Source of the DNA: an uncultured Pelagibacteraceae bacterium
GTDB taxonomy: Bacteria > Pseudomonadota > Alphaproteobacteria > Pelagibacterales > Pelagibacteraceae
Length of the DNA stretch: 64,000 bases
Reading direction: 5' to 3'
NCBI GenBank assembly: GCA_902587295.1
Contig: CACIKS010000002.1
Span: 34,134 to 98,133 of the forward strand
Of the stretch, positions 11,623 to 35,128 are shown piece by piece. The first letter of the stretch is position 1. The number at the start of each line of letters is the position of its first letter. The position numbers and the translations under genes are program-made. The notes below the pieces were generated by a model. The model did not search any database. It was not told the origin of the DNA and worked only from the letters and a program-made list of their open reading frames with translations.

Positions 11623-12746
11623 TGTTTAAGCAAGGATCAATCCATTCACACTTAAGTTTAAGAGATAAAATATTTTCGTTAGATCTAGTTTTAGTTTCTT
11701 GCATTTTAATACTTGGTATAATCAGTTTCTTTGCAATGTATTCTACAGACGGAGGTGAATTTGCTTATCACACCAAGAGTCATATCGTAAGATTTTTTGT
11801 ATTTTTCTTTTTATTTATTATAGTTTCTTTCTTTAAAGCAAATTTTTGGTATACATGGAGCACTGGAATTTACTTAGCTTTTCTTACTTTATTGGTGCTC
11901 GTCCAGTTGTTTGGTTTGACTGCCTCAGGGTCACAAAGATGGTTAAATCTTTATTTTCTAAATATTCAACCCTCAGAATTAATGAAGATAGGCTTAATTT
12001 TATTTTTGGCAAAATATTATCACCGGATCTCTTCTGGTGACGTAAATAGGTTTAAGTTTTTATTAAGCCCAATCATTGCATTGATGCTGCCAGTTTTTAT
12101 GGTTCTTACTCAACCTGATCTTGGAACAGCATTTTTAATTGGAGCTGGGGGAATAGTCGTAATTTGGCTTGCAGGAGTCCAAATGAAATATTTTGCTTAT
12201 CTTGGAGGAATTTTTTTAGCAATCACCCCTATTGCAATCTCTTTTTTAAAACCTTATCAGAAATCTAGAATTTTAACTTTCCTTGATCCAACTAGGGATC
12301 CTCTTGGGGCAGGGTATCAAATTACTCAATCCAAAATTGCTATTGGCTCTGGAGGATTATTTGGTAAAGGTTTTTTAAATGGATCACAAAGCTATCTAGA
12401 TTATTTACCTGAAAAACATACAGATTTTATATTTACATTATTTTCTGAAGAGTTTGGGTTTTTTGGCTCGTGTATAGTTTTATTACTTTATATTTTAATT
12501 ACTTGGAGAATAGTTTCTATCGGAAATATGCTTAGAGATACTTTTGGTAAGTTATTCTGTTACAGTTTTGCAACAGCTTTTTTTCTATATGTTGCTGTCA
12601 ATATGGGTATGGTTTTAGGTTTGATACCCATTGTGGGCGCCCCTTTACCCATACTGTCATATGGCGGCTCTTCAATGATGGCAATGATGTTCGGATTGGG
12701 TATTGTAATGAGTTGTCGGATACATAAAGACGAGCACATTGGTTAA
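11622..12746 (+). CDS. rodA: Peptidoglycan glycosyltransferase RodA (SEDS)
   Basis: LTQPDLGTAFLIG, LPEKHTDFIFTLFSEEFGF, PLPILSYGGSSM; multi-TM. Confidence 0.95.
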   Translation: MFKQGSIHSHLSLRDKIFSLDLVLVSCILILGIISFFAMYSTDGGEFAYHTKSHIVRFFVFFFLFIIVSFFKANFWYTWSTGIYLAFLTLLVLVQLFGLTASGSQRWLNLYFLNIQPSELMKIGLILFLAKYYHRISSGDVNRFKFLLSPIIALMLPVFMVLTQPDLGTAFLIGAGGIVVIWLAGVQMKYFAYLGGIFLAITPIAISFLKPYQKSRILTFLDPTRDPLGAGYQITQSKIAIGSGGLFGKGFLNGSQSYLDYLPEKHTDFIFTLFSEEFGFFGSCIVLLLYILITWRIVSIGNMLRDTFGKLFCYSFATAFFLYVAVNMGMVLGLIPIVGAPLPILSYGGSSMMAMMFGLGIVMSCRIHKDEHIG

Positions 12747-12828
12747 TACAACTTTTAGTATGCTTTTTTCATAAAAAAATATCAATTCAGAGGTTGCATT
12801 ATCGTTAATAATTTGCTTCAATTCAATT

Positions 12829-13302
12829 ATGTTTGGATCCAAAAAACAGACCGCACCAAGACCGCTAAATGATAGCGGAAGATCTTTGATTAGTGAAACT
12901 TTTTCACTTGAAGGAACATTAAGAACTTCTGGCGCGATAGACATTGCTGGATTAGTTAAAGGTGCAGTGTACACAAATGATTTAATCATAAAGGAGACTG
13001 GATCAGTAATTGGACCAGTAGAAACAGATAGAATTGAAATTTACGGACATCTAGAAGGAAAAGTTGTGGCGAAGACAATTGTAATTGGAAATACAGCAGT
13101 TGTTAAAGGGGATATTTTATTTAGCGAAACTCTAAAAACAGAAGAAGGCGCAGATATCGCTGGCTATTTGAAAAAGACAGAGAGTACGAGTCTTGAAGCA
13201 GCTCAAGATGAATTTAAATTAGATTCTATTGAGACAAAAGATAAAGACAAAGATAAAGATAAGGCTAAAAAAGGCAGACCAAAAATAGTTGCAAGCAACT
13301 AG
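12829..13302 (+). CDS. Bactofilin family cytoskeletal protein
   Basis: Beta-helical DUF583-type repeats (LEGTLRTSGAIDIAGLVKGAVYTNDLIIKETGSVIGPVETDRIEIYGHLEGKV); adjacent to the rod-shape cluster. Confidence 0.9.
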   Translation: MFGSKKQTAPRPLNDSGRSLISETFSLEGTLRTSGAIDIAGLVKGAVYTNDLIIKETGSVIGPVETDRIEIYGHLEGKVVAKTIVIGNTAVVKGDILFSETLKTEEGADIAGYLKKTESTSLEAAQDEFKLDSIETKDKDKDKDKAKKGRPKIVASN

Positions 13303-13360
13303 TTCTAAGCAGTACAATCTAACACAGTTTAATCTAAAAAATTTTAAGTTAAAATGATTT

Positions 13361-14608
13361 ATGTCTTCGGATAAAGTTTCTTCTGTAGGGATAGTTGGGT
13401 GCGGTATTCAAGGAGTATGTATTGGTCTACAGCTATTAAAAAAAAATATTCCAACAACAATATTTGATCGAGAAGAACCCGGCTCAATGGCATCCTACGG
13501 TAATGCTGGACATTTTTCACCTTATGCAGTTCTACAATTAAATAGACCTGATATACTTTACGATGTTCCTAAAATGTTATTTAGTTCTAATGGACCTTTG
13601 GCCTTACGCTGGAACTATATTCCTAAGATGCTTCCCTGGATACTGGGATATTTAAAAAATTGTAATCAGAAATCAATGATGCATACAGCAAAAAATATGC
13701 ATCAAATTTTAAATCTTTCAATGGAAGCTTATGAGGAAATTTTCCAAGAGATTGATACAACAAATTTAGTCGATCAAAAAGGAATAATATACATTTGGAC
13801 AAATAAAAATATGAAAAGTAGAAATTTAGAAATTAAAGTAAGAGATGAATTAGGTGTAAAACAAAAAATACTTACAGTTAAAGAAATATTAGATTTAGAA
13901 CCAAATTTAAAACCAGTTTTTGATGGTGGCTGCTATTATGACTACGCTTATCATGCGAGAGATCCTCATAAAATATTAAAAAAGATATTTGATTTGTTTA
14001 TTAGTAAAGGAGGAAAGTTTATTAAAGAAGACGTAAATTCTATTAAACAACTTCAAGAAAACGAAACGCTTATTAAAACTGACACAAGAGAATATAAATT
14101 TGAAAAATCCGTTATTGCTTGTGGTGCTTACTCAAAAAAATTGACAGATCAACTTGGTGAAAATATACCGCTTGATACAGAGAGGGGATACCACGTTCAC
14201 TTCAAGGGTATGGAAAATTTAATTAAAAGACCTGTTATTTTTCTAGACCGAGGTTTTGGTATGACACCAATGAATCAAGGATTAAGAGCTGTCGGGACCG
14301 TTGAGCTTGGGGGTTTAAAAAATCCTTTATCCAAAAAAAGAATTAATTATGTCGTTAATTGTGCCAAAGAACTTTTACCACAATTAAATGATCATCAAGA
14401 TGAGTGGTTGGGTTTTAGGCCGACATTACCAGATTTTCTTCCAGTAATTGGACCATCAAAGAATAATAAAAATATTATCTATGCTTTTGGACATCAACAT
14501 TTGGGATGGACGTTGGGAGCAATAACTGGAAAAATAGTTTCTGGAATTCTTTCTAATGAAAAAACAAATTTAGATTTATCTGCCTATAGTTCGTCGAGGT
14601 TTAACTAA
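13361..14608 (+). CDS. FAD-dependent D-amino-acid dehydrogenase/oxidoreductase (DadA-like)
   Basis: N-terminal GCGIQGVCIGLQLL dinucleotide-binding motif, DAO-type C-terminal YAFGHQHLGWTLGAITGKIV. Confidence 0.83.
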   Translation: MSSDKVSSVGIVGCGIQGVCIGLQLLKKNIPTTIFDREEPGSMASYGNAGHFSPYAVLQLNRPDILYDVPKMLFSSNGPLALRWNYIPKMLPWILGYLKNCNQKSMMHTAKNMHQILNLSMEAYEEIFQEIDTTNLVDQKGIIYIWTNKNMKSRNLEIKVRDELGVKQKILTVKEILDLEPNLKPVFDGGCYYDYAYHARDPHKILKKIFDLFISKGGKFIKEDVNSIKQLQENETLIKTDTREYKFEKSVIACGAYSKKLTDQLGENIPLDTERGYHVHFKGMENLIKRPVIFLDRGFGMTPMNQGLRAVGTVELGGLKNPLSKKRINYVVNCAKELLPQLNDHQDEWLGFRPTLPDFLPVIGPSKNNKNIIYAFGHQHLGWTLGAITGKIVSGILSNEKTNLDLSAYSSSRFN

Positions 14609-20840: not shown

Positions 20841-23171
20841 TTAATAAAGATGTTTTTGAAAGTCGATAAACATATTTTTTATACCTTCTGGATTTCCTAA
20901 ATTTTTTTCTCCATCTAAGAGGGCTTTATATTTAAGTATTATTAAATCACTCAATCTATTAATATCTAATTCTTCAACACCGCCCTCAACATATTTGCTT
21001 AATACGAAATCTATAAATTCTTTTTGCTTATCATTTAGGCTTTGATAAATTTTATTCTCTGCTTTACTAACTCTTGTTGCTCTTGGAATAGGTTTCTTTT
21101 GATAAGCAATATATTCAAGCACATCAAATAAATCGCTATTTTCTGCTTCAATTAAAGTCTGAATTGATTTTAAATCTGGTTTAGCAAAACCATTATCCTC
21201 TAATTTTTTTAATAATGTATTTCTTGTAATAGGTGACGACCAAAGTTTTCTTAATTCCTCTTCACTTTTTAAGATACTTGGTAAAGTAATGGTATTAAAT
21301 AGTTTCTTTATAAACTCTTCTGCAGTAACAGGTTGTCCTTGAAAATAGAATAGGGAAGTAGACATCGATTTAATAGTTAACTCTTTTCCTTCAGCAAGCT
21401 TAATCACTATTTTTTCTCTTGGAGGTTTTGGTTCTGGCGGTTCTTCACCTCCACCTTCCTCACCAGGTTCAAAAGGTTTTTCTGGTTTTTCCTCAGGCGG
21501 TTCTTCAGGAATAGGTTCACCATCCCATTCAGGGTCTGAAAAGTTTGCAGAAGCTCCAACAAAATCAACTATCGTGAAATAAAACTTATCTTCAAATAAT
21601 CTTGTTCCTCTACCAATTATTTGTTTAAATTCAATCATGTTGTTTACCGGTCTCATTAAAACTATATTTCTTATATTTAGTGCATCAACACCAGTACTTA
21701 GTTTTTGACTAGTGGTTAAAATGGTTGGTAATGTTTTTTCATTATCTTGGAATTGTCTAAGATGAGTATCTCCTGTTTTGGTATCTTTAGCTGTTACTCT
21801 GACACAATAGTCTGCAGGTGGATTCACTGAAACTTGATTAATTAAATCTCTTACCATTCCAGCATGAGCAATACTTGCACAGAAAACTAAAGTTTTTTCT
21901 TTTGGATTAATACTATCAAGCATCAACTTAACTCTTTTTTTTTCTCTTTCTTCTATAACAATTCTTTTATTAAAATCTTTTTCTTCAAATACTTCACCCT
22001 CATTTATTTCTTCTTCACCAGATAGAACATCATCATCGCCTGTATAAACATATTCATCCATTGTTGTTTGAATTCTCTTAACTTTAAATGGTGTTAAGAA
22101 ACCATCTTTAATTCCATCTTTAAGAGAGTATGTGTAAACAGGTTCACCAAAGTAAGCATAAGTGTCTGCATTAAATTTTCTTTTAGGTGTTGCTGTTAAA
22201 CCAATTTGAACCGCTGATGAAAAATATTCCATTATTCCTCTCCATCTACTTTCATCTTTAGCTCCACCCCTATGACATTCATCAATAATTACTAAATCAA
22301 AAAAATCAGCAGGGTATTGACCAAAGTAAGGTTCTTTTTCTGGACCAGACATAAAGCTTTGAAATATTGTAAAGAAGATAGAACTATTTGTGGGAACAGA
22401 ACCTTTTTTTCTAACATCACTAGGCGTAATTCTAAGCAAAGCATTCTCTTCAAACGCTCCAAATGCATTAAAAGCTTGATTAGCTAATATATTTCTATCA
22501 GCCAAGAATAATATTCTTGGTAGTCTTTTACCATCTCTTTGCTTATTCCATCTTGCTTGGAATAATTTCCAAGCTATATGAAAGGCAATAACTGTTTTAC
22601 CAGTACCTGTTGCAAGAGTTAAAAGTATTCTTTGTTGATTGTCTGCTATAGCATCTAAAGCATTATTGATTGCTATTTCTTGGTAATACCGTGGTTCTCT
22701 AATGCCTTTAAAAGGCTCAAAATTTACAGAGTCAAACTTGCTAGACCATTCATTTTTTTCTTTAAAAGTTTTAATCCATAATTCATCAGGTGTTGGAAAT
22801 TTATCAACCTCACCTTCTGAGGTGATAAACATTTCACCTTTTTCATTTTTAGAATAATTAATTTCATAAATTTTATGACCATTTGAAGAATAGCTAGTTA
22901 ATAACTTTAATTTTTGTGCATAGTCTTTTGCTTGGCTAACACCATCACTTACATTAAATTCATCACTTTTAGCTTCAATAACTGCTAGTTTTCTATTCTT
23001 ATAAATAAGAACATAATCAGCTCTAATAATACCTGCTCTTATACCTCCTGGTTTTATTTCACCATTTGTTATTTTGAATTCTCTTCTAACGAAACTGCCC
23101 TTAACATCTCCCCAACCAGCTTCTTTTATCTTTGGGTCAATTAATTCTGCTCTTGTCTCTGCTTCGTTCAT
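20841..23171 (-). CDS. hsdR: Type I restriction endonuclease subunit R (EcoEI-like helicase/nuclease)
   Basis: HSDR_N region (IEAKSD), Walker A LATGTGKTVIAF, DECHRGGAKDESRW, helicase motif QIIGRGTRLFEDK, Pro/Glu-rich linker then EcoEI-type C-terminal region. Confidence 0.95.
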   Translation of the reverse strand: MNEAETRAELIDPKIKEAGWGDVKGSFVRREFKITNGEIKPGGIRAGIIRADYVLIYKNRKLAVIEAKSDEFNVSDGVSQAKDYAQKLKLLTSYSSNGHKIYEINYSKNEKGEMFITSEGEVDKFPTPDELWIKTFKEKNEWSSKFDSVNFEPFKGIREPRYYQEIAINNALDAIADNQQRILLTLATGTGKTVIAFHIAWKLFQARWNKQRDGKRLPRILFLADRNILANQAFNAFGAFEENALLRITPSDVRKKGSVPTNSSIFFTIFQSFMSGPEKEPYFGQYPADFFDLVIIDECHRGGAKDESRWRGIMEYFSSAVQIGLTATPKRKFNADTYAYFGEPVYTYSLKDGIKDGFLTPFKVKRIQTTMDEYVYTGDDDVLSGEEEINEGEVFEEKDFNKRIVIEEREKKRVKLMLDSINPKEKTLVFCASIAHAGMVRDLINQVSVNPPADYCVRVTAKDTKTGDTHLRQFQDNEKTLPTILTTSQKLSTGVDALNIRNIVLMRPVNNMIEFKQIIGRGTRLFEDKFYFTIVDFVGASANFSDPEWDGEPIPEEPPEEKPEKPFEPGEEGGGEEPPEPKPPREKIVIKLAEGKELTIKSMSTSLFYFQGQPVTAEEFIKKLFNTITLPSILKSEEELRKLWSSPITRNTLLKKLEDNGFAKPDLKSIQTLIEAENSDLFDVLEYIAYQKKPIPRATRVSKAENKIYQSLNDKQKEFIDFVLSKYVEGGVEELDINRLSDLIILKYKALLDGEKNLGNPEGIKNMFIDFQKHLY

Positions 23172-24235
23172 GCTGCTTTATTTTGTATTTCTTGAGTAAG
23201 TATTGATGATTTTAGAGCTTCAAAACTTTGTTTTTGTTTTTTATAATTTATACGTAGCTTATGAAGATTATTTTCTATCTTTTCAAAGGCATTAACTATT
23301 TGGGACTGTTCGTCAACGGATTCTGGAAATCTAATCTTTAAATCTTTTATTGAAGAAAAAGAGATAACTGGCTGTGCAGCGTGACGTGCAAAACTCCGCA
23401 TATTTATAGAAGATAATATCAGAGAAAGGAATTTGAGATTAAAATCGTATTTGTAAGAGTGGGTATACATTGCATTATCTGTTAACCAAATTTTCTCATT
23501 AACATAATGGACATTACCGCAATAAGCTCCAACTCTTCCAATCAAAACATTTTTCCCATCTAAATTAAAATCATTATGGTTTCCAGCAATTCCATTTCCA
23601 CCATAAACTTTGATATTTCCTTCTGAATTCATTTTATTCTTTGGTAGAAATTTACCTGAACTAACTTTAAATAATGAGCCAAGTGGACTACTAATAAACT
23701 TACTATCATATCTATCAAGCAAATCTGGCAATATCTTTGATGTTACAGTTGTGGCTGCTTCTAATTTTTTATTATTTAACGAAATAGATTTATCAATCTC
23801 AGCAAATGCTGCCTCAAGTTTTGCCACTATTTGCTGTTGTTTTTCGACTGATGTTGGGTAAGTTATTTTTAATAATCTAAAATTTTTCATAGAAAGATTT
23901 CTTTGAGCCGTTCCTCTTCCAAGTTGGTAAATAGTGCTATTTAATGAAAGTATAGTTTTATCTAGAAAACCTTGTGATAAATCTTTTGTTTTAGGCGATA
24001 ATGTTAATCCGCTATCATTAAGAAAAAACTTATCTTTAACAAAGCGCGTACATTGTTCTGACATAGCGAAACGTGAAATAACAACTCTATCTTGTCGATT
24101 TGTTTTATCTATAAAAAATGTTTCACCTCCACCTCCATACACTGGATAAACTGTTCCACTATCTTTTCTCCTAACAACTCTTGTTCCATACTCTATGTTA
24201 CATATTTCATCTATAGTCGAAGTCTTCCACATCAT
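23168..24235 (-). CDS. hsdS: Type I restriction-modification specificity subunit S
   Basis: Two target-recognition domains, each with a YGGGGE/YGGNGIAG-type motif and conserved helix (EKQQQIVAKLEAAFAEIDK); overlaps hsdM and hsdR by 4 nt. Confidence 0.93.
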   Translation of the reverse strand: MMWKTSTIDEICNIEYGTRVVRRKDSGTVYPVYGGGGETFFIDKTNRQDRVVISRFAMSEQCTRFVKDKFFLNDSGLTLSPKTKDLSQGFLDKTILSLNSTIYQLGRGTAQRNLSMKNFRLLKITYPTSVEKQQQIVAKLEAAFAEIDKSISLNNKKLEAATTVTSKILPDLLDRYDSKFISSPLGSLFKVSSGKFLPKNKMNSEGNIKVYGGNGIAGNHNDFNLDGKNVLIGRVGAYCGNVHYVNEKIWLTDNAMYTHSYKYDFNLKFLSLILSSINMRSFARHAAQPVISFSSIKDLKIRFPESVDEQSQIVNAFEKIENNLHKLRINYKKQKQSFEALKSSILTQEIQNKAA

Positions 24236-25686
24236 AAAAATTCCTTAATTTTATTCAATGCTACAGAAGATTGTTTATCAAGTTCTTCTATCTCAGTCAG
24301 AATCTCTTTTGTTGTTCTGTTGTCTATTTCTTCAACCTTGTTAGGGTTTTGAACTCCTAAATCACACGTATCTTTGTTTATTTTTTCTATCTCCATAGTC
24401 CAACTATTGTCACTTAGCTTTTGTGTTTTGGCTAATTTAATAAAATCAGTTAAGTCATTATCATTTAACGAATTAGTTTTACCCATGCTCCTTCCCACAT
24501 TGAGTTGGTAGTACCAAAGTTTTTTTGTTGGTTTTCCTTTTTCAAAAAATAAAACTACTGTCTTAACCCCAGTTCCAAGGAAAGCTCCACTTGGTAAATC
24601 AAGTACTGCAAATAAATTACATTCTTCAAGCAGTTGTTTTCTAAGTGCTATGCTTGCGTTATCTGTATTACTTAAAAAAGTATTCTTAATAACAACACCG
24701 CATCTTCCTCCAGCTTTTAATTTTTTTATAAAGTGTTGAAGGAATAGATAGGCAGTTTCTCCAGTTTTAATCGGAAAATTTTCTTGGATTTGTTCTTTTT
24801 CTTTTCCGCCAAAGGGAGGGTTAGCAAGAATAACATCAACTCTATCTTTGTTTTGTATTTCTTGAATATTATCTTCTAAAGTATTTTTATGAATAATATT
24901 AGGACTTTCAATTCCATGAAGTATCATATTCATAATACCAATAATGTAAGCTAAAGTTTTTTTTTCAACTCCATAAAATGATTTTGATTGAAGTATTTTA
25001 AGCTCTGAAGTGGTCAGAGATTTTAATTTACTCATATGCTCAAATGCTTCAACTAAAAATCCAGCACTACCAACAGCTCCATCATAAATAGTTTCTCCAA
25101 CTTTGGGATTAATTACTTTAACAATGGATTTAATAAGTGGTCTTGGCGTGTAGTATTCGCCTCCATTACGACCAGCGTTACCCATGTTTTTAATTTTTTC
25201 TTCATATAATGCACTTAGTTCATGTTTTTGTTTATTGCTTCTAAACTGAAGATTATCAACTTCATCTATTACTCCTCTCAGAGTATAACCATCTTGAAGT
25301 TTATTCTTAAGTTCTGAAAATATTTCTCCTATTTTGTATTCAAGAGTATCAAAGCTTTCTGCTTTATTTCTAAATGAAGAGAGATAAGGAAATAGTTTAT
25401 CATCAACAAATTTCTTTAAATCAGGGCCAGTAAGAATTTTATTAAAATCTACTTTTCCACCTTTTGTTTTAATAATTGCCCAAGAAGACCATTGATACTC
25501 TTTATCTAATACAGGTTTAAATTTCTTATTTTCTAATGATGCTTTTGTTTCTTTCTCTTTTTCATAATCATCTAACCATTTAAGAAACAATATCCATGAA
25601 GATTGTTCTGCATAATCTAGCTCAGTGCTACAACCAGCATCCTTCCAAAGGATATCATCAATATTTTTAAAAGTTTGTTCAAACAT
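24232..25686 (-). CDS. hsdM: Type I restriction-modification DNA methyltransferase subunit M
   Basis: GGEYYTPRPLIKSIV, GAVGSAGFLVEAFEHM, VILANPPFGG (N6-adenine MTase motif IV NPPF). Confidence 0.96.
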   Translation of the reverse strand: MFEQTFKNIDDILWKDAGCSTELDYAEQSSWILFLKWLDDYEKEKETKASLENKKFKPVLDKEYQWSSWAIIKTKGGKVDFNKILTGPDLKKFVDDKLFPYLSSFRNKAESFDTLEYKIGEIFSELKNKLQDGYTLRGVIDEVDNLQFRSNKQKHELSALYEEKIKNMGNAGRNGGEYYTPRPLIKSIVKVINPKVGETIYDGAVGSAGFLVEAFEHMSKLKSLTTSELKILQSKSFYGVEKKTLAYIIGIMNMILHGIESPNIIHKNTLEDNIQEIQNKDRVDVILANPPFGGKEKEQIQENFPIKTGETAYLFLQHFIKKLKAGGRCGVVIKNTFLSNTDNASIALRKQLLEECNLFAVLDLPSGAFLGTGVKTVVLFFEKGKPTKKLWYYQLNVGRSMGKTNSLNDNDLTDFIKLAKTQKLSDNSWTMEIEKINKDTCDLGVQNPNKVEEIDNRTTKEILTEIEELDKQSSVALNKIKEFL

Positions 25687-25748: not shown

Positions 25749-26342
25749 TTATTTATAATAGTTTTCTAAAAATTCTGAATATTTTGCTCCATAGAAAGTT
25801 ACTGTTAATTTATCTACATATTTAAATTCCTTACTGTTATCATAGCAGATAATTTCTATCTCAGCCCCACTGCTCGTTGGCTTTAAAAAAAACGAGACCT
25901 TTGAGAATTTACTTTTACCAGTTTTATCACCGGGATGGAGACCTTCAGATGTCCGTTTTTCATCAAAATTGAATGACTTGTCTAGATCAAAGGCAATTTC
26001 ACTCATTTTCTTTTTACATGCATTGAAGTTATCTGGGAAATTTATCATTCCATCAATACCAATAATAACAAATCTTGAATCATTTTTTTCAAAATGAATT
26101 TGTACACTGTCATAATTTTTAAAATAAGGTTTTTTGAAAAGCACAATATGATTAACTTCATTTTGATTTTTGTATAATTCTCTTTCAAAGTGATAATTGT
26201 TTTTAATCTCCTTTTTACTATAAAATTTCAACAAACTATCCCCGATGCTCATTCCTTCAATCTGAAAGTCTCTTATATCTTCTGCATTTGACGATGTTAC
26301 AAAACATAAGCTCAGAATGATGATGGCTAAAAGGTTTTTCAT
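25749..26342 (-). CDS. Small secreted protein, DIRDFQIEG family (paralogue 1)
   Basis: Signal peptide MKNLLAIIILSLCFVTSSNA then EDIRDFQIEGMSIGDSLLKFYSKKEI; DKTGKSKFSKVSFFLKP and CYDNSKEF also shared with neighbours. Confidence 0.8.
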   Translation of the reverse strand: MKNLLAIIILSLCFVTSSNAEDIRDFQIEGMSIGDSLLKFYSKKEIKNNYHFERELYKNQNEVNHIVLFKKPYFKNYDSVQIHFEKNDSRFVIIGIDGMINFPDNFNACKKKMSEIAFDLDKSFNFDEKRTSEGLHPGDKTGKSKFSKVSFFLKPTSSGAEIEIICYDNSKEFKYVDKLTVTFYGAKYSEFLENYYK

Positions 26343-26343
26343 A

Positions 26344-26943
26344 CTAATAAGCTTTGTTAGTCATCCATTTGTCAAACTCATTTGATACAATAGAAATTCT
26401 TAAATTATCCATGATATTATGTTTCTTTTTTGCAGTTTTTCCCCAAGTAACACACTGCAACCAAACCTGTCCATCATTCAAAATAAAATAAGTTTCATGT
26501 CTTATAGCTTCCGGATCATAGTCTTCTTGACCAACAATATCCCTACTATATTTTTTTGCGTTCTTAAATAATTTGTCAATTTCAATCTCAATAGAATTTT
26601 TTTTCTCTTTGCATAATTTTTCTGACTCAGGATAATATATAGATGATTTACCGAATATCAGTGCTCCACTAAAACCATGTATCTGATAATTGTTATCATT
26701 ATTTTTTAAATGGAACTGCATAACAGGATATTCTTTAAATTTTTCACTCCAAATATCTAAAGTATAAAATTCATTATCTTTATAAGTATATTTACGTGAA
26801 GAAAGAATAGTATTTTTATCAACAAATTTTAATAAACTATCCCCAACACTTATTCCTTCAATCTGAAAGTCTCGGATATCATTCGCCTGGGATGGGGTTA
26901 TTAAAAACAAACCCAGAACCAAGATGGCTAAAAGTTTTTTCAT
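26344..26943 (-). CDS. Small secreted protein, DIRDFQIEG family (paralogue 2)
   Basis: MKKLLAILVLGLFLITPSQANDIRDFQIEGISVGDSLLKF. ATG at 26943 preferred to the ORF-track start at 26979. Confidence 0.8.
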   Translation of the reverse strand: MKKLLAILVLGLFLITPSQANDIRDFQIEGISVGDSLLKFVDKNTILSSRKYTYKDNEFYTLDIWSEKFKEYPVMQFHLKNNDNNYQIHGFSGALIFGKSSIYYPESEKLCKEKKNSIEIEIDKLFKNAKKYSRDIVGQEDYDPEAIRHETYFILNDGQVWLQCVTWGKTAKKKHNIMDNLRISIVSNEFDKWMTNKAY

Positions 26944-27085
26944 GAGACTCATCTTATCCGGACTCAATGGCGGACTCAATAAGGACTCACCCAGTAAAGA
27001 AATAGCCGTTTTTTATGCTCTAGAATTGTTGTATATCGTTAGAAGGTTAAGGGTACCTGGCAACAGAACGCCCCTTACAACTTAA

Positions 27086-27127
27086 GAGTTTTCTGAATTA
27101 AACAAACTCAACACTATTCAAATATAA
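27086..27127 (+). repeat. Degenerate second copy of the etfA 3' end (direct repeat of 20760..20804)
   Basis: Encodes [13 protein letters not shown] versus [14 protein letters not shown] in etfA; includes 20 identical nt ttaaacaaactcaacactat (20775-20794 and 27098-27117). Confidence 0.85.
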
Positions 27128-27176
27128 AAGTCATTGCACTTTGTAAATAAAATGGCTACTTTAAATAGGGGATATA

Positions 27177-27425
27177 ATGGAATTTATTGCGCTAATATTT
27201 TATGCTGCAGCAGTTATAGACTTTGTTACGTCTTGGTTAGGTTATAATTTGACTTACTTTTTAGGAGAAGCTTCTCGTTTTTCTCCAATTATTTTAGGTG
27301 GTATAGGTTTTGTTATTCAAAAATTAGGTGAGTCGGGTGGTGCAGGTTTAAGACAATCCGAGGAAGATAATTTGCCAGAACAGTATCGAACAAAATCAAG
27401 AAAAAAAACAAAGAAGAGTAAGTAA
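27177..27425 (+). CDS. Small putative membrane protein
   Basis: 82 aa ORF with two hydrophobic stretches and a basic tail; starts 50 nt after the etfA 3'-end remnant. Confidence 0.5.
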   Translation: MEFIALIFYAAAVIDFVTSWLGYNLTYFLGEASRFSPIILGGIGFVIQKLGESGGAGLRQSEEDNLPEQYRTKSRKKTKKSK

Positions 27426-27492
27426 AAATAAAAAAAAGAGAAGTCTAAATTTATCTCATAGCTGCCCATGAGAAAATGTTATTGCAATGGGT

Positions 27493-28077
27493 TTATTTGT
27501 AGTGTTCGTTTAACAGAAAGTCTGAAAATTCTTTGGTTAAGATCGCTATTGTTAAACTATTATTTTCCCAATTTTTTTGTTTTGAAAATTCTTCTGTCAT
27601 ATCATAGCAAGCAACTTCTGCGAAGCCACCGCTTTTTAACCAAAAATACACATTATGAATTTTACTTTTTCCTGTCGGATCTGCTGCATAAGATCGTTCT
27701 TTAGCATCTACTTTTTGGGAATTTATAAATATTTCTGATAATCCTTTAATTGCTTTTTCATATTCTATTTTACAATCTTTTATATTTTTAAAAATTTTTA
27801 ATCCTCTTATTCCATAAATTTTATATTTTTTGTCCTTTGGTTTGTAAATGAAATCCATTGTATCATAAGAATCGGAATTAACAGGTATTGTTATACTTAG
27901 AAATTTTTTATCTTTATAAAAATCTTTAACACCGTTATTTATTTCCTCCTTACTAAAATGATCCAGCGCACTATCCCCAACACTTATTCCTTCAATCTGA
28001 AAGTCTCTTATATCATCTGCCTTTGACGAAGTTATGAAGTATAAGCTCAGAATGATGATAACTAAAAGTTTTTTCAT
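27493..28077 (-). CDS. Small secreted protein, DIRDFQIEG family (paralogue 3)
   Basis: MKKLLVIIILSLYFITSSKADDIRDFQIEGISVGDSALDHFSKEEI; ATG at 28077 preferred. Confidence 0.8.
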   Translation of the reverse strand: MKKLLVIIILSLYFITSSKADDIRDFQIEGISVGDSALDHFSKEEINNGVKDFYKDKKFLSITIPVNSDSYDTMDFIYKPKDKKYKIYGIRGLKIFKNIKDCKIEYEKAIKGLSEIFINSQKVDAKERSYAADPTGKSKIHNVYFWLKSGGFAEVACYDMTEEFSKQKNWENNSLTIAILTKEFSDFLLNEHYK

Positions 28078-28078
28078 T

Positions 28079-28651
28079 TTAATTGGCTGTTTGTAACCAT
28101 TCATCAAACTCTGGACTATCAATCGATACTAAAATGTATTTATCTTTTGAAAAATCATCGTTCCAGTCGTAGCATACTAAGTCAATTGTACCTGTTCTGA
28201 AATAATAGTTTACTTGTTTAACCCAACTTCTTTTAGTTTTATCAGCCTCGTGCAAACGTTTCTTGCCTTCACGTCTATTTGCATTTGTAAATATTTTTTT
28301 TAAATCTTTATCAATTTTCTTTTGTTTTGTGAGACATTGGGCCATATTATCAAAAAATAATCCTCCACTAATTGCATAAATCATGTATTTTTTATCATTT
28401 TTCATAAAGACAACTTGGACGTCTTTATAAGTTTCGAAAGAATTTAATACTAACTGCGCATCATAAAATTTTCCGTCTGAATTTGGATAACTATTTTTTC
28501 TAATACTTTTTTTTATTTTCTCTTCACTAAAATAGTTTAATGCACTTTCATAGAGGCTCATTCCTTCAATCTGAAAATCAGTGATATCATCCCCTTGTGA
28601 TGGCGTTATTAAGCATAAGCTTAAAACTATAATGGCTAAAAGTTTTTTCAT
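28079..28651 (-). CDS. Small secreted protein, DIRDFQIEG family (paralogue 4)
   Basis: MKKLLAIIVLSLCLITPSQGDDITDFQIEGMSLYESALNYFSEEKI; overlaps the next gene by 4 nt. Confidence 0.8.
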   Translation of the reverse strand: MKKLLAIIVLSLCLITPSQGDDITDFQIEGMSLYESALNYFSEEKIKKSIRKNSYPNSDGKFYDAQLVLNSFETYKDVQVVFMKNDKKYMIYAISGGLFFDNMAQCLTKQKKIDKDLKKIFTNANRREGKKRLHEADKTKRSWVKQVNYYFRTGTIDLVCYDWNDDFSKDKYILVSIDSPEFDEWLQTAN

Positions 28652-29235
28652 TCAAAGGGTTTGCCAGTTAGAAACTTGGTAAACTTATCGGAGGTTAAAG
28701 CGATAGTTAGGTTATCACCCCACCCTTTGCTTTTAGTAATTTTGTCTGACCAATCAACACAATAAAGGTCAACAGATCCACGATCTAAAAAAAAAACATA
28801 TCCATAAGTAAAACTTTCACCAGATTTATCGGCACCGTGTGGAGCGTCATGCTTAGTATATTTAATGTTTATTATATTATCTTGCAAAGTATTTAAAATT
28901 TTTCTCATTTGTATTTTGCAATCCTCTGTGCTTCTTTTAGTAAAATTAATTTTTCCACTAACCCCATGAATTTCATATTTTTTGTCATTAGGCTTGAAGC
29001 TTACTTGCACACGGTCATATTCATTTGGAATAATTGGCAAAGTAATGCTCATAAACTTATTGTCTCTATATTTGTATGCAGTTTTTTTTTGTTTTTCAAT
29101 CTCACTTTCGCTTAGGTAATCTAATACACTTTGCCCAAGACTTACTCCTTCAATTTCAAAGTCTCTAATATCATCCGCCTTCAAGTGGTTTGTTAAAAGT
29201 AAACTAAAAAATAATATTGTTAAAAACTGTTTCAT
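28648..29235 (-). CDS. Small secreted protein, DIRDFQIEG family (paralogue 5)
   Basis: MKQFLTILFFSLLLTNHLKADDIRDFEIEGVSLGQSVLDYLSESEI; overlaps neighbours. Confidence 0.8.
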   Translation of the reverse strand: MKQFLTILFFSLLLTNHLKADDIRDFEIEGVSLGQSVLDYLSESEIEKQKKTAYKYRDNKFMSITLPIIPNEYDRVQVSFKPNDKKYEIHGVSGKINFTKRSTEDCKIQMRKILNTLQDNIINIKYTKHDAPHGADKSGESFTYGYVFFLDRGSVDLYCVDWSDKITKSKGWGDNLTIALTSDKFTKFLTGKPFE

Positions 29236-29831
29236 CTCTGCATGAATTTTATATAATCTTCAGAGGCAATACTAACGGCACCTGTATCATTAAAGCCGGT
29301 TTTTTTATCATATTGTGTGCACCACACTCTTACCATGCCCTTTTGAGAAGGAAAAGCATACCTGCTTACATGAGCCTTAGAGTTTCCCATATCTTTGTCT
29401 TGGTAATCAGCAACATAATCAATAAAATTTGCACCATTTAGAATTGTAGATATCTCTTTTACTACCTCATCTTTAAATTTTATACATTCTTGAAATCTAT
29501 TTTCGAATTGTTTTACACCTTTAATAGAATGAATAATAAATTTTTTATCATCGACCTTTACATGAAATCCTAATTTTGAATATAATTCAGAATTTGTATT
29601 TGTGGCAAGAACATTAAAAACTCCTTTATCATAAGTAGTAATTGGAAAATTTGAAATTTCAGACTTTGTATAAAAATCTAATAAACTATCCCCAATACTT
29701 ATACCTTCAATCTCTAAGTTTTTGATATCATCAGATTTGGCCCAAGTTTGAAAGCTTAAGGTCAAAAGATGCAAAAATAAATATTTTATAATTATAAATT
29801 TTTTCACCTCAAAATAGTAAACAAATATCAA
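29232..29831 (-). CDS. Small secreted protein, divergent DIRDFQIEG family member (paralogue 6)
   Basis: KSDDIKNLEIEGISIGDSLLDFYTKSEI after a hydrophobic leader; 4-nt overlap with paralogue 5. Confidence 0.75.
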   Translation of the reverse strand: MIFVYYFEVKKFIIIKYLFLHLLTLSFQTWAKSDDIKNLEIEGISIGDSLLDFYTKSEISNFPITTYDKGVFNVLATNTNSELYSKLGFHVKVDDKKFIIHSIKGVKQFENRFQECIKFKDEVVKEISTILNGANFIDYVADYQDKDMGNSKAHVSRYAFPSQKGMVRVWCTQYDKKTGFNDTGAVSIASEDYIKFMQR

Positions 29832-29888: not shown

Positions 29889-31790
29889 ATGAAGAGATTC
29901 TTAGCAACCCTTTTGTTATTTGGAATATTGTTGAGCAATCAATATGCGTGGTCATCATGGATTACCAAAAAATCAGATACATCTGAAAAAGTGGAAAGCA
30001 TAGAAAAAGAATACGCAGATGGTTTTATATCTAAATCAGAATGTAATAAACAAAAATCAAAAGTTCTTAAATTAAAAAAAATATCAGAAACAATATGTGA
30101 CAACGTTAAAGTAAAAGTTGCACAATCATCATGGATAAAAAAAAAATCGAAAGAAGAAATTAAAAAAGAAAAATCAAATTACATACAAAAAAAAGAAAAA
30201 GAGACAAAAAAGGAATTTGTAAAAAAAAAAAAGAATTTATCAAAATCTATTAAAAAATGGATTTCCAAGAAAAAAACTAAAGATAAACGGCATTTTAATT
30301 CTGTAGCGCAACTACCTAAATCTGATTACTATTTTACTGCTGTTGACGGAAGTGGAAACACATTTATTGGTTATTTAAATGGGAATGAAAATGAAGACAG
30401 CATAAGTGTAAGCGGCCAAAGTATGCTCAAAATTTCAGATGGAAAAGCTTTTCAAAATAATAAAAAAACACAGTGTGATGTTCGATCAGAAATTTTAAAA
30501 GCGGATAAATTAATATTTAATGGTGTAGTAATTATAAAGTGTCCAACAAAAGAATTTATTGGTAGTTGGACCCAAACAGGTTCAGAAGGTTTTGGTATTG
30601 CTACCTCTGAGAAAACTAGACTTGAATTCAATTTTTCACAAAGTAAAAAAATAATAAATGCAAAACATACTGAAAATAAAACTAAGACAAAAATAGTTAA
30701 AAAAGACATTCAAAGTGAAAAAATCAAAGATAGTATTTGTCCAGAGATAAAATTAGTAGATAATAATCAGGTCTTTAATAGTTCAGATTGTAAGACTAAA
30801 GTTGCGAAAATTCAGGTAACAGATGGAAATTTTTCTTTGATTGGTTTTGCTACAGACAACGAAGAAGTCCAACGCTTTTCAGTTGATGGTAGACCAATTA
30901 AGCTTAAGTCTGATGGAAGTTTTAAATACAATGGAAAAACAAATTCATCGAAAGATGTTTATCTTGTTGCTACAGATAAATTTGGAAAAATAACTGAATT
31001 GAAAGTAATTATAGAAGTTTTATCACAAAAAGAAAAATTCATTAATAAACAAAAATATTACGCTTTATTAATTGGCAATAGCAAATATCAAAAATGGGAT
31101 AATTTAACGTCACCCGTTAATGACATTGATAAAATTGCAAACACACTAGAAAAAAAATATAAATTTCAAAAAGTGAAAATTTTAAAAGATGCATCTAAAG
31201 ATGAAATTATAAATGCATTTTATGACATGCAGGAAATTGTTGGCAAAGACGGCAATTTATTAATTTATTACTCTGGTCACGGTATGACTATAACAAGACA
31301 AGGAAAAGAAAAACATTTTTGGATACCCGTTGATGGCACCAAAGAGTACAAAGGAGGTGGTAGAAGTTGGTTATCCACGTCTTTTGTAAAGGACCAAGCA
31401 GACACACTATTAGCTTCGAAAGTTTTAATAATGGTTGATAGCTGTTTTTCTGGAACCTTTGTTTCAAAAGGTAGCCACAATTTAATTACTGAAGAGGAAA
31501 AAAGTATTAACAAACTGAATTTTTTAAAAATGAATGTTAATCGTATTGGACGAGAATATATTTCTTCAGGAGCAAATCAACAAGTTGAGGATACAAATGG
31601 AGGAAAATATTCTGCTTTTGCAAAAGTTTTCATTCAAAGTTTAGAAGATAATAATGGTCATTTATATTCTAAGATACTTCACGCAAAAATACATGAATAT
31701 TTAAATCCACTGACTGGCCAACAAGCGCAATATAGTTTTATTAAGAATGCAAACCATAGTAAAGGGGTTTTTGTTTTTTCAACAAGGTAG
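29889..31790 (+). CDS. Secreted caspase-like (peptidase C14/metacaspase-type) protein
   Basis: Signal peptide, SHOCT-like segment (ESIEKEYADGFISKSECNKQKSKVLKL), Ig-like region, then C14 core YYALLIGNSKYQKWDNLTSPVNDIDKIANTL with His motif YYSGHGM and Cys motif MVDSCFSGTF. Confidence 0.88.
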   Translation: MKRFLATLLLFGILLSNQYAWSSWITKKSDTSEKVESIEKEYADGFISKSECNKQKSKVLKLKKISETICDNVKVKVAQSSWIKKKSKEEIKKEKSNYIQKKEKETKKEFVKKKKNLSKSIKKWISKKKTKDKRHFNSVAQLPKSDYYFTAVDGSGNTFIGYLNGNENEDSISVSGQSMLKISDGKAFQNNKKTQCDVRSEILKADKLIFNGVVIIKCPTKEFIGSWTQTGSEGFGIATSEKTRLEFNFSQSKKIINAKHTENKTKTKIVKKDIQSEKIKDSICPEIKLVDNNQVFNSSDCKTKVAKIQVTDGNFSLIGFATDNEEVQRFSVDGRPIKLKSDGSFKYNGKTNSSKDVYLVATDKFGKITELKVIIEVLSQKEKFINKQKYYALLIGNSKYQKWDNLTSPVNDIDKIANTLEKKYKFQKVKILKDASKDEIINAFYDMQEIVGKDGNLLIYYSGHGMTITRQGKEKHFWIPVDGTKEYKGGGRSWLSTSFVKDQADTLLASKVLIMVDSCFSGTFVSKGSHNLITEEEKSINKLNFLKMNVNRIGREYISSGANQQVEDTNGGKYSAFAKVFIQSLEDNNGHLYSKILHAKIHEYLNPLTGQQAQYSFIKNANHSKGVFVFSTR

Positions 31791-31800
31791 TTTTAGGATT

Positions 31801-33078
31801 ATGAAAGTTTTTATTTTATTTTTTACTATTGTTTTTTTTCTACAACATGTCCAAGCAGCAGATAATAAATTTAAAAGAATGGACAAAGCAAATAATATGA
31901 AAAAAGTAAACATTACTGTTGGTTTTACAAATATGATCAGTAATGAGAAAATTAAAACTCTTAATAATGAACTATCCGAGTACAAAAAAATTTCAAATCA
32001 TATTTCAGACAAAGAAAAACCAGCTACAAAGAGAAAAAAATATAAAGGCTTAAGTCAAAATATTTACAGAAATAATGCAGGCAGTGTGGTTTACATTGGC
32101 AACCCATCAGCAAAAGGAACGGGTTCTGGTTTTTTAATAAATAAAGAAGAGGGTTTGATTTTAACGAATTGGCATGTAATTGATGGAGCTAAAAAAGTAT
32201 ATGTCTGGTTCAAACCAGAAGATCCAAACAAAATGGACGAGGATTTATTAATCAATGAACCAAGAATAGATGGAACTGTAATTAAGAAAAATAAAAGCAA
32301 AGATCTAGGTTTAATTAAAGTTTTGCGTGTTCCTAAAAATGCTAAGGCTCTTGTAATAAACAAAAAAATATATGTCGATGTAGGATCAACGGCATATTCA
32401 ATTGGTCATCCGAGTGGTCTAACCTGGACTTTTAATTCTGGAATGGTGACTCAAGTCAGGAAAGGTTTTAAATGGAGATATAAAAACTCTAGACATTTAG
32501 CAAATGTAATTCAGCACGAAGTTCCCACAAACCCAGGTAATTCAGGTGGACCATTATTTAATGAAAGGGGACATGTAATTGGAGTTAATTCTTTTAAAGA
32601 TTCCAAAGGCGAGGTGATAAACTTTTCAGTATCAATAGATGAGGTTGATAAATTCTTAAAACAAAAAATAATTGAGAAAAAGAAAAGTAAATACATACAA
32701 AAAAAATCTAAGCAAACTTGGATACAAAAAAAATCAAAGAAAGAAAATAGTAAAACAGAACAAATAAAGAAAATATTTCCTAACGCAAAAATTCATGATG
32801 AGAATAAAAATGGAACAACTGACACATGGTTCGTAGATAAAAATAAAAATGGAAAAATAGATAGAGCATTCATTGATGATAACGAAGATGGAATTATAGA
32901 AGCGATATTAGTTGATAAAGATGAAAACGGAAAATGGGATTTTCTATTCGTTGATAAAGATCTTGATGGAAATCCAGATGAAGCATTTATTGATGAAGAC
33001 CAAGACGGTAATCCCGATGTAGTTGCATACGATTACAATCAAGATGGTGAATGGGATAAATTTGAAAATGTTGGTTAA
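31801..33078 (+). CDS. Secreted trypsin-like (HtrA/S1C-type) serine protease with C-terminal DxDxDG calcium-binding-like repeats
   Basis: Signal peptide MKVFILFFTIVFFLQHVQA; TNWHVIDG, KDLGLIKV, NPGNSGGPLFN triad motifs; acidic repeat tail. ATG at 31801 preferred to the track start at 31747. Confidence 0.88.
   Translation: MKVFILFFTIVFFLQHVQAADNKFKRMDKANNMKKVNITVGFTNMISNEKIKTLNNELSEYKKISNHISDKEKPATKRKKYKGLSQNIYRNNAGSVVYIGNPSAKGTGSGFLINKEEGLILTNWHVIDGAKKVYVWFKPEDPNKMDEDLLINEPRIDGTVIKKNKSKDLGLIKVLRVPKNAKALVINKKIYVDVGSTAYSIGHPSGLTWTFNSGMVTQVRKGFKWRYKNSRHLANVIQHEVPTNPGNSGGPLFNERGHVIGVNSFKDSKGEVINFSVSIDEVDKFLKQKIIEKKKSKYIQKKSKQTWIQKKSKKENSKTEQIKKIFPNAKIHDENKNGTTDTWFVDKNKNGKIDRAFIDDNEDGIIEAILVDKDENGKWDFLFVDKDLDGNPDEAFIDEDQDGNPDVVAYDYNQDGEWDKFENVG
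32791..33063 (+). repeat. In-gene tandem repeats encoding ~13-14 aa D-x-[DN]-x-[DN]-G units
   Basis: Translation HDENKNGTTDTWFVDKNKNGKIDRAFIDDNEDGIIEAILVDKDENGKWDFLFVDKDLDGNPDEAFIDEDQDGNPDVVAYDYNQDGEWDKF: about seven units. Confidence 0.85.
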
Positions 33079-33089
33079 TTTTTTTTTTT

Positions 33090-34487
33090 ATGCTTTTTAA
33101 ACGATCATTAATATATATAAAATTTTCTTTTATTATATTTTTTTTTTCAACTACATATCTTAATGCAGGAGTAGATAATTGTGATAGATTTGGTCAAGCT
33201 GTAGAGGATAAAAAAGATTTTAATTATCCAACAAAAACTATTAACGACCTTGGTATTTTCTTTCAAAAAAAATTTACTATTAACGGAGTAGAAAAAATTA
33301 TAAGAGATATAAATAATTATCCTATAATTTATTTTTCGTTATATGAAAAAGATAAACTAAAAAATGGTACTGTAATAAAATCAATTAATAAAAATAATTT
33401 ATCAAAAATTTCTGATGAAGAATTAATTCTTTTAATTAAAAAAATCAATTATGGCAGTATAGAATATTTTAAGACATCAAGTAATACCGACTTAGTTAAA
33501 ATTTATGGAAAAGATTACGGGGGTATTTTCTTTTTAGTCGATCAACTATTTATAAATACAATAGGGGAAGTTGATGCAAAAAAAGGTTTTTTCACAATGA
33601 ATTATGATTATAAGCTGATATATGATCGACCGGATTTAAAATCTGAGGGAGTTTTGTTAAAAAATGACGAATGTACAATTAATACAAAATCATATGAAAC
33701 AAAATTTAGCGATATTTACCGACCTGATAAAGAAATATTAATAAAACAATTTGATAGGGACCGGGATAAGATAGAAGAAACTTTTGGATTTTATAATGAG
33801 AACGGTAATACTTATTTATTTCAATCTATTAAAGGTACGTCGAAAATAAGAGCAAAATTTAATTTTTCAAAATTTCCATTTGATACTCAACCATTAAAAA
33901 TTCAAATTATTTCATCTTTAAAAATAAATGAAGGGAATGAGACAACACAGATTTTTCCAACATCATCATTATTTAAGAACATAAAAAATTTTAAAGAAAA
34001 CAATTTTCTTGAAGAATGGAAAGTAAAAGACTTTGAAATTTCAAATAATTTAATTAATTTAGATAATAATAAATATGACTCTTTAAAAATTTCAATAAAT
34101 GTAAAAAGGAATTCTAATTATTATATTTTTAAAATAATAATTCCTGTTTTGTTAATTTTAGCAGTTGCATGGAGCGTTTTATGGATTCCGCCTAAAGAAG
34201 AATGGGTCGAGTCAAGGTTAACAACGTCGATTGTAGCCCTGTTATCTTTGATAGCTTATAACTTTGTTTTTTTAGATGATATTCCAAAATTAGATATACT
34301 TACCAGTTTAGATTTATTTATACTCTTATCTTATTTATTCTGCGCAATACCGATTTTTACAACAATTTTTCTAAGTAGATTATTAGATAAAAGTCCGAAA
34401 AGAGCTTACACAAGAAATAAATCTATAAGAATTTATGGAGGAACAATTTATATTATTTTTAACGCCTTCATTTTTCTACCAATTTAA
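33090..34487 (+). CDS. Pentameric ligand-gated ion channel (Cys-loop receptor superfamily) homologue
   Basis: Signal peptide; Pro-loop FPFDTQPLKIQI; M1 YYIFKIIIPVLLILAVAWSVLWI; M2 ESRLTTSIVALLSLIAYNFVFLDDIPK; M3 LTSLDLFILLSYLFCAIPIFTTI; C-terminal M4 IYIIFNAFIFLPI. Confidence 0.87.
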   Translation: MLFKRSLIYIKFSFIIFFFSTTYLNAGVDNCDRFGQAVEDKKDFNYPTKTINDLGIFFQKKFTINGVEKIIRDINNYPIIYFSLYEKDKLKNGTVIKSINKNNLSKISDEELILLIKKINYGSIEYFKTSSNTDLVKIYGKDYGGIFFLVDQLFINTIGEVDAKKGFFTMNYDYKLIYDRPDLKSEGVLLKNDECTINTKSYETKFSDIYRPDKEILIKQFDRDRDKIEETFGFYNENGNTYLFQSIKGTSKIRAKFNFSKFPFDTQPLKIQIISSLKINEGNETTQIFPTSSLFKNIKNFKENNFLEEWKVKDFEISNNLINLDNNKYDSLKISINVKRNSNYYIFKIIIPVLLILAVAWSVLWIPPKEEWVESRLTTSIVALLSLIAYNFVFLDDIPKLDILTSLDLFILLSYLFCAIPIFTTIFLSRLLDKSPKRAYTRNKSIRIYGGTIYIIFNAFIFLPI

Positions 34488-34516: not shown

Positions 34517-35128
34517 TCAAGACTCAATTGAGTTTAAAATTCCAATATACCAATCTCTCAATTTTATCATTTCATTAGTGGGTTTTTTGTTATATTCGTT
34601 AATCTCATCTAATAATTCCTCAGGCATAGTGCTACCCCTGTTCGAGGACGTTATCCACTGCGATGTGCTTAATTCCCAATACTGTTTTGCTTTTACTAGG
34701 TCTCTTTTGACACCGCCTAATCCTGAATAATAGAAAAAACCAATATTATAACTTGCAATTGTAAATCCTAAATCCGAAGCTTTTTTATTCCAATCAAATG
34801 CCTCTTTATCATTCTTATTCATAATTTTTCCGGTAAAACTCTCCCAGCCTAAAGTTGTCATAGCGTTGACCTGATCTTGCCAAGCAGCCTTGTATAAATA
34901 ATCAATCCCTATACCTATATTTTTTTTATCTGGAAAAATACCGGCCCGTGGCATTCCATATAAAAAAATATGTCCTATATCATTTTGTGAAACCGCATCA
35001 CCCGAATCTGCTTTTTGTTTCATTTCAAGCAAGTATGCAGGTAAACTATCATCCGCTTTTATATTATTTGCAAAAATACTATTTAGACTTATTAAAGTGA
35101 CAAAAAGTACTATAAGTAACTTTTTCAT
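34517..35128 (-). CDS. Secreted Sel1-like repeat protein
   Basis: Signal peptide; Sel1-type units (AVSQNDIGHIFLYG, AMTTLGWESFTG, IASYNIGFFYYSGLGGVKRDLVKAKQYWELS). Confidence 0.75.
   Translation of the reverse strand: MKKLLIVLFVTLISLNSIFANNIKADDSLPAYLLEMKQKADSGDAVSQNDIGHIFLYGMPRAGIFPDKKNIGIGIDYLYKAAWQDQVNAMTTLGWESFTGKIMNKNDKEAFDWNKKASDLGFTIASYNIGFFYYSGLGGVKRDLVKAKQYWELSTSQWITSSNRGSTMPEELLDEINEYNKKPTNEMIKLRDWYIGILNSIES

Follow-up and report, generated by a model that had tools for sequence, protein, structure and literature searches.

Bacterial gasdermin (bGSDM) operons pair a pore protein with caspase-like and trypsin-like proteases (PMC9079055), and in the Canu system (CanABC) a MALT1-like bacterial caspase activates an effector (PMC12799240). 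The pentameric ligand-gated ion channel (pLGIC) DeCLIC carries extra periplasmic N-terminal domains, is regulated by Ca and is opened by Ca depletion (PMC9897478). Channels of this family were also noted in Pelagibacter by Jaiteh et al. 2016, with no mention of an operon, a protease or a PDZ domain (PMC4795631). Here, we analyzed a locus in which a caspase-like peptidase, an HtrA-like serine protease and a pLGIC (hereafter the trio) are encoded side by side in an uncultured bacterium of the Pelagibacteraceae (SAR11; assembly GCA_902587295.1, 852 kb, 76% complete). The trio is located in a stretch of 64,000 nucleotides of contig CACIKS010000002.1 (positions 34,134 to 98,133, forward strand), which is referred to as the window. 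An earlier note on the sequence of the window knew of no described system with these three genes, and none that combines a caspase, an HtrA and a pLGIC was found in the open-access literature either (most subscription papers were outside its scope).

The three open reading frames (ORFs) are intact and all located on the + strand. They are separated by intergenic gaps of 10 nt (31790/31801) and 11 nt (33078/33090), which bears out the arrangement of co-directional genes with ~10-nt gaps described in the earlier note, and no terminator-like site was found between them on the coding strand. As judged by eye, the N-termini of caspase, HtrA and channel resemble signal peptides, consistent with the signal peptide previously proposed for each protein, and export is predicted for every member of the trio. 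The proposed family memberships (C14 caspase, serine protease and pLGIC) were recovered by Pfam and NCBIfam matches and, for the channel, additionally by an AlphaFold (AF2) model. An in-frame ATG upstream of the HtrA gene, at 31747, offers an alternative start. The features of the trio are, in window coordinates:

29889 to 31790, + strand: secreted C14 caspase/paracaspase-like peptidase, 633 aa (PF00656, 3.7e-21; MALT1/metacaspase fold matches)
29958 to 30272, + strand: caspase region with four [WY]IxKK motifs (first residues aa 24, 82, 98 and 124)
31122 to 31124, + strand: caspase Asp412 (invariant, 24/24; aligns with MALT1 Asp365)
31278 to 31280, + strand: catalytic His464 (YSGHG) of the caspase (invariant, 24/24)
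31443 to 31445, + strand: catalytic Cys519 (DSCFSG) of the caspase (invariant, 24/24)
31801 to 33078, + strand: secreted HtrA-type serine protease without PDZ, 425 aa (PF13365, 1.8e-26; TIGR02037 (Do/HtrA), 1.7e-30)
32692 to 32733, + strand: two [WY]IxKK motifs of HtrA, between the protease domain and the Ca-type repeats
32797 to 33060, + strand: D-x-N-x-(N/D)-G Ca-binding-type repeats at the HtrA C-terminus (alignments, invariant Asp columns)
33090 to 34487, + strand: pLGIC subunit, 465 aa (NF033918 (LGIC_1), 1.5e-20)
33234 to 33506, + strand: PDZ-like N-terminal periplasmic domain of the channel, ahead of the extracellular domain (secondary structure, alignment, PF00595 matches of relatives)
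34209 to 34211, + strand: Glu374 at position -2' of the second transmembrane helix (M2) of the channel (acidic in 55/56 homologues)

Of 196 sampled genomes of the family, 9 have the caspase, 17 have the channel and 11 have close homologues of HtrA (E<1e-59). A channel-profile search of genome contigs yielded 79 channel loci, labelled with L-numbers. HtrA was located no more than three genes upstream of the channel in 35 of these, which we defined as trio loci; 44 were other channel loci. The caspase precedes HtrA in 30 of the 35 trio loci, and in the remaining five (L081, L084, L092, L102, L106) the HtrA ORF starts 2–241 bases from a contig end. Rare adjacency in relatives, which the earlier note had named as an argument against its proposal, was therefore not what we observed. 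The order caspase, HtrA, channel recurs across the 30 loci, usually with the small gene cl5 between the latter two, and the caspase-HtrA junction of the sister loci is most often a 4-nt overlap. According to our reading of the flanking genes, which differ between trio loci, the trio occupies at least nine genomic sites. In the window it lies in a 14-kb island between an ETF subunit gene (etfA) and an ETF-QO-like gene; the same site is empty in genome G180 (L073), where these two genes are ~21 nt apart. In a class-wide sample, close relatives of HtrA turned up in only two other Alphaproteobacteria, neither of them with an adjoining caspase or channel. Co-evolution was assessed as the correlation of pairwise distance matrices. 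HtrA and the channel were strongly correlated (r = 0.91, 36 loci), and residues 1–137 of the caspase tracked both HtrA (r = 0.90) and the channel (r = 0.84). Since 30 loci from other genomes have the genes in this order, the trio is not a chance assembly, and we consider it highly probable that caspase, HtrA and channel form one functional unit.

The caspase comprises a constant N-terminus with WIxKK motifs (aa ~1–137), a beta domain (~138–262) and a catalytic domain (~386–633). Its fold matches MALT1 (Foldseek 5e-12) as well as metacaspases, and it unites the caspase fold and the His-Cys dyad of C14 peptidases. The catalytic and pore residues of the trio, whose integrity the earlier note had made a point of its proposal, are intact: the caspase His and Cys are invariant in 24/24 sequences and the HtrA triad (His125-Asp168-Ser248) in 33/33, and M2 position -2' is acidic in 55 of 56 channel sequences. 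MALT1 Asp365, the counterpart of caspase Asp412, is part of the S1 pocket for basic P1 residues (PMC4357240); from this alignment, Asp412 is a candidate for the acidic S1 residue of C14B-type peptidases. The catalytic domain showed a much looser relation to HtrA (r = 0.40) and to the channel (r = 0.38) than the N-terminal part, and these values fell to 0.17 and 0.13, respectively, when the window, L079 and L080 were left out. Between the window and L079, the caspases share 82% identity in the N-terminal part and 44% in the catalytic part, and the respective values for L107 and L096 are 69% and 98%. On the simplest reading, the caspase would be polymorphic, its catalytic domains having been exchanged between otherwise co-inherited loci. 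At locus L182 (6119–15809), three caspase genes without WIxKK, one of them with MORN-like repeats, stand beside a Ca-repeat HtrA.

The serine protease is HtrA-like rather than a canonical HtrA, because domain scans gave no PDZ match and its C-terminus consists of Ca-type repeats. It shares with the caspase the motif [WYF][IV]xKK (also written [WY]IxKK or WIxKK). Shuffling predicts 2.1 motifs for the 30 caspases and 1.8 for the 35 HtrA genes, and we counted 67 in either set. No other family of these loci (~1,500 ORFs) has proteins with at least two motifs. The motif is also absent from 6/6 Ca-tail HtrA proteins that have another partner, five with CHAT proteins (L073, L123, L137, L138, L145) and one with the MORN-caspase (L182). 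Motif sharing by caspase and HtrA is specific to this pairing. WIxKK could be a docking motif that joins the two proteases, or a Lys cleavage site for the caspase.

Variants of this arrangement were also observed. No channel is present at loci L074, L171, L181 and L183, which encode a WIxKK caspase together with a TPR-HtrA-like protein and cl0 (see below). Small proteins that consist of WIxKK motifs, a C-terminal hydrophobic segment and a basic tail are encoded inside cl0 arrays (L181:500-817, L183:7029-7256). Giant CHAT proteins with PDZ or TPR replace the caspase beside Ca-repeat HtrA (L137:11939-16378, L072:7955-12250, L138, L145, L073:9410-13141), and among the examined loci, only those lacking the caspase have them.

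The AF2 monomer model of the channel has a pLDDT of 86.8 and matches DeCLIC, GLIC and GABA-A receptors (Foldseek 1e-17 to 1e-19); the match to PF02932 (4.7e-6) is just short of the cut-off. The model and the Foldseek matches comprise the beta-sandwich extracellular domain, the invariant FPFD Pro-loop and the four transmembrane helices of a pLGIC, and as a putative member of this family the protein would form a pentamer with ligand-gated conductance. Since the acidic -2' residue of M2 and the Leu at 9', which is invariant (56/56), are found as in cation-selective relatives, family resemblance suggests that the channel is cation-selective. The N-terminal region ahead of the extracellular domain is present in 51/56 channel homologues, and PF00595 (PDZ) matches six of the 56 (best 7.1e-6); the window channel protein itself has no PDZ match in Pfam. 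The location of a PDZ-like domain on the channel, with none on HtrA, suggests a physical coupling of the two. In other SAR11 loci, a pLGIC without the PDZ-like domain is directly preceded by a Tat-exported flavin amine oxidase (L120:11362-12705 and 12708-13922, with PF01593 at 3.7e-42 for the oxidase in L120; L130:7038-9591; L147:6476-9006), so that the ligand might be an amine which the oxidase removes. As regards a viral origin of the locus, no confirmed channel relative was found in viral contigs and no PHROG match for the caspase, cl0 or cl5–cl8, and this origin was rejected.

Trio loci are accompanied by arrays of genes for an orphan family of ~195-aa proteins, cl0, which are secreted by appearance. 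Six cl0 genes span positions 25749–29831 of the window, and the neighborhood of the trio is composed as follows:

20841 to 25686, - strand: type I restriction-modification genes HsdR, HsdS and HsdM, a complete set in the island
25749 to 26342, - strand: cl0 secreted protein
26344 to 26979, - strand: cl0 secreted protein
27177 to 27425, + strand: cl6, a small membrane protein of SPW-like type, found again next to the trio in sister loci
27493 to 28122, - strand: cl0 secreted protein, tandem array (start probably at 28077)
28079 to 28651, - strand: cl0 secreted protein, tandem array
28648 to 29235, - strand: cl0 secreted protein, tandem array
29232 to 29831, - strand: cl0 secreted protein of ~195 aa, tandem array
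34517 to 35128, - strand: Sel1-repeat protein (PF08238, 3e-12) at the edge of the island; such proteins also adjoin some sister trios

No Pfam or PDB family matched cl0. A kinship with the caspase, HtrA or channel domains was rejected, as the profiles matched only signal peptides or a 15-residue stretch. At least three cl0 copies were found in 9/9 genomes with the caspase, in contrast to 4/187 others (p = 7e-13). Two of these four are G114, in which a WIxKK caspase was found, and G006, whose HtrA and channel genes stand at the end of a contig. Within 10 kb, cl0 was present at 30/35 trio loci and at only 1/44 other channel loci; the latter (L114) starts at the channel gene, its upstream side being lost. 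Within loci, cl0 proteins share a median identity of 33%. The swapping of the caspase catalytic domain and the diversification of the cl0 arrays suggest a selection for diversity in recognition or target specificity, of the kind seen in conflict systems. The cl0 arrays of the window, L170 and L177 have restriction-modification genes next to them, and that of L174 has the candidate defence gene PDC-S11. Among the clustered sister regions, no homologue of the HsdR/HsdS/HsdM set of the window turned up.

The best explanation of the trio is, in our view, an envelope proteolytic switch that gates cation influx in a conflict or cell-death setting, in analogy to the bGSDM operons, to which the trio is unrelated. 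We assign a probability of roughly 0.4 to this mechanism of proteolysis-gated depolarization, in which roles in phage defence and cell death are what we infer. The PDZ-bearing pLGIC of the inner membrane would be controlled by caspase and HtrA, which would jointly form the proteolytic switch in the periplasm. A change in Ca2+, an envelope breach or an intruder-derived signal might trigger the switch, and the channel would be opened by proteolysis or by displacement of its PDZ-like domain. Seawater Na+ or another cation would then enter, the membrane would depolarize, and the cell would be arrested or killed. A more specific version is less probable: here the pLGIC, a relative of animal neurotransmitter receptors, would serve a periplasmic cascade of caspase and HtrA as its effector, and the specificity of the caspase would vary between strains. 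The whole would confer protease-gated ion-channel immunity or programmed death, with the diversified cl0 proteins as sensors, substrates or inhibitors.

Several observations weigh against the proteolytic switch. PADLOC returned weak generic protease matches only and none for the channel. The enzymes are predicted to be periplasmic, where intracellular phage sensing would not be direct. The correlation coefficients given above ignore phylogeny, and the restriction-modification neighbors were seen in few chosen loci, with no background rate beside them. Furthermore, loci that have PrsW and a pLGIC but neither caspase nor HtrA are common across SAR11, and the channel thus also exists outside the module.

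The main alternative is a non-lethal envelope sensing circuit, which we regard as possible, albeit unlikely. In such a circuit the pLGIC would respond to a ligand, to an ion or to pH. Regulated proteolysis would be the task of HtrA and caspase, joined in sister loci by PrsW and the CII-like cl5, and ion flux or a freed fragment would alter gene expression or envelope homeostasis. Relatives of HtrA and PrsW work in envelope-stress signalling, as established for DegS and PrsW. PrsW is located near the channel in 41/44 non-trio channel loci, and this intramembrane protease and a CII/CP76-like helix-turn-helix protein occur at many loci. The latter is cl5, a small antisense gene usually found between HtrA and channel, which tracks the channel (r = 0.87) and whose relative in L137 matches phage CII/CP76 (PF06892, 8.7e-6). 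The Ca-type repeats of the trio HtrA would also fit a sensing role, given the opening of DeCLIC by Ca depletion (PMC9897478). However, cl5 is absent between HtrA and channel in the window and in its closest relative, and neither PrsW nor cl8 was found in the 76% complete window genome, one of the searches having had no positive control. Since this genome appears to lack both, PrsW and cl8 may be dispensable for the core. Patchy presence (9/196 family genomes), swapped catalytic domains and varied sites would also be unusual for a housekeeping stress circuit. As for the distribution of these accessory genes, a cl5-PrsW-pLGIC cassette is widespread in SAR11 (channel loci lacking the caspase, L118–L157), and PrsW-pLGIC pairs were also observed in SAR86 (L140) and in a gammaproteobacterial metagenome-assembled genome (L155). 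A PrsW-cl7-cl8 block lies beside many trios (L067:3629-6877 and equivalents); cl7 is secreted and has no Pfam match, and cl8 is a ~500-aa membrane protein of no family.

The constant N-terminus and swapped catalytic domain of the caspase, together with the diversified tandem cl0 arrays and their strong co-occurrence with it, would also be expected of a polymorphic-toxin or kin-discrimination system, in which the caspase is an exported toxin, cl0 provides immunity, and HtrA and channel aid processing or entry. We consider this improbable. A role of cl0 as cognate immunity protein of the catalytic domain was not supported, as the best cl0 identity between loci showed no relation to catalytic-domain identity after removing HtrA identity (partial r = -0.004, in a test weakened by the 10-kb limits of the loci). 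Nor did we notice a secretion apparatus or an outer-membrane domain for delivery at these loci. Highly improbable is a role of the proteases in periplasmic protein turnover or peptide scavenging, with the channel as an unrelated neighbor. SAR11 feed on dissolved organic matter, and both proteases are predicted by inspection to be periplasmic, but the HtrA-channel correlation, the motif sharing of caspase and HtrA and the restriction to only ~5% of genomes argue against it. Finally, coincidental neighborhood in a hypervariable island, as might be suspected from the variable etfA/ETF-QO island with its restriction-modification and array genes, has a negligible probability and was ruled out by synteny (one order in 30 loci), site diversity, co-evolution and motif covariation.

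Bacterial pLGICs are key models for neurotransmitter receptors and their physiological role is largely obscure; the co-evolving protease partnership gives one of them a context. If the proposed switch is true, the most abundant marine bacteria would have caspase-type control in their envelope, with a channel taking the place of a gasdermin pore. The constant and variable parts of the caspase, like the orphan arrays that occur with it, point to a conflict system in diversification. The protein families are known, and their assembly, the envelope location and the polymorphic caspase were not found described in the open-access literature. The trio HtrA has the same protease domain and triad as HtrA/DegP/DegS but lacks their PDZ and carries a WIxKK linker and a Ca-type repeat tail, with a PDZ-like domain located on the channel instead. 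The channel has the same fold as DeCLIC, GLIC, ELIC and sTeLIC. It differs from DeCLIC in that its N-terminal part is a single PDZ-like domain, not two lobes, and in being encoded with proteases. TPR-CHAT proteases have counterparts in the PDZ/TPR-CHAT proteins that hold the caspase position beside HtrA in five loci, whereas the window has a C14 caspase, and no CRISPR genes were noticed in the CHAT loci. As in Canu, a MALT1/paracaspase-like caspase is part of a modular locus, but that of the trio is secreted, its partners are HtrA and an ion channel, and the scanned trio and array genes gave no match to a nuclease domain such as the MBL-type pro-nuclease of Canu. The same scan of the trio and array-neighbor genes gave no gasdermin match. 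In contrast to the bGSDM operons, the trio has a ligand-gated channel as its pore, and its proteins are all predicted to leave the cytoplasm. Both share two protease types and a membrane-pore protein, and proteolysis-controlled permeability is also the logic proposed here for the trio.

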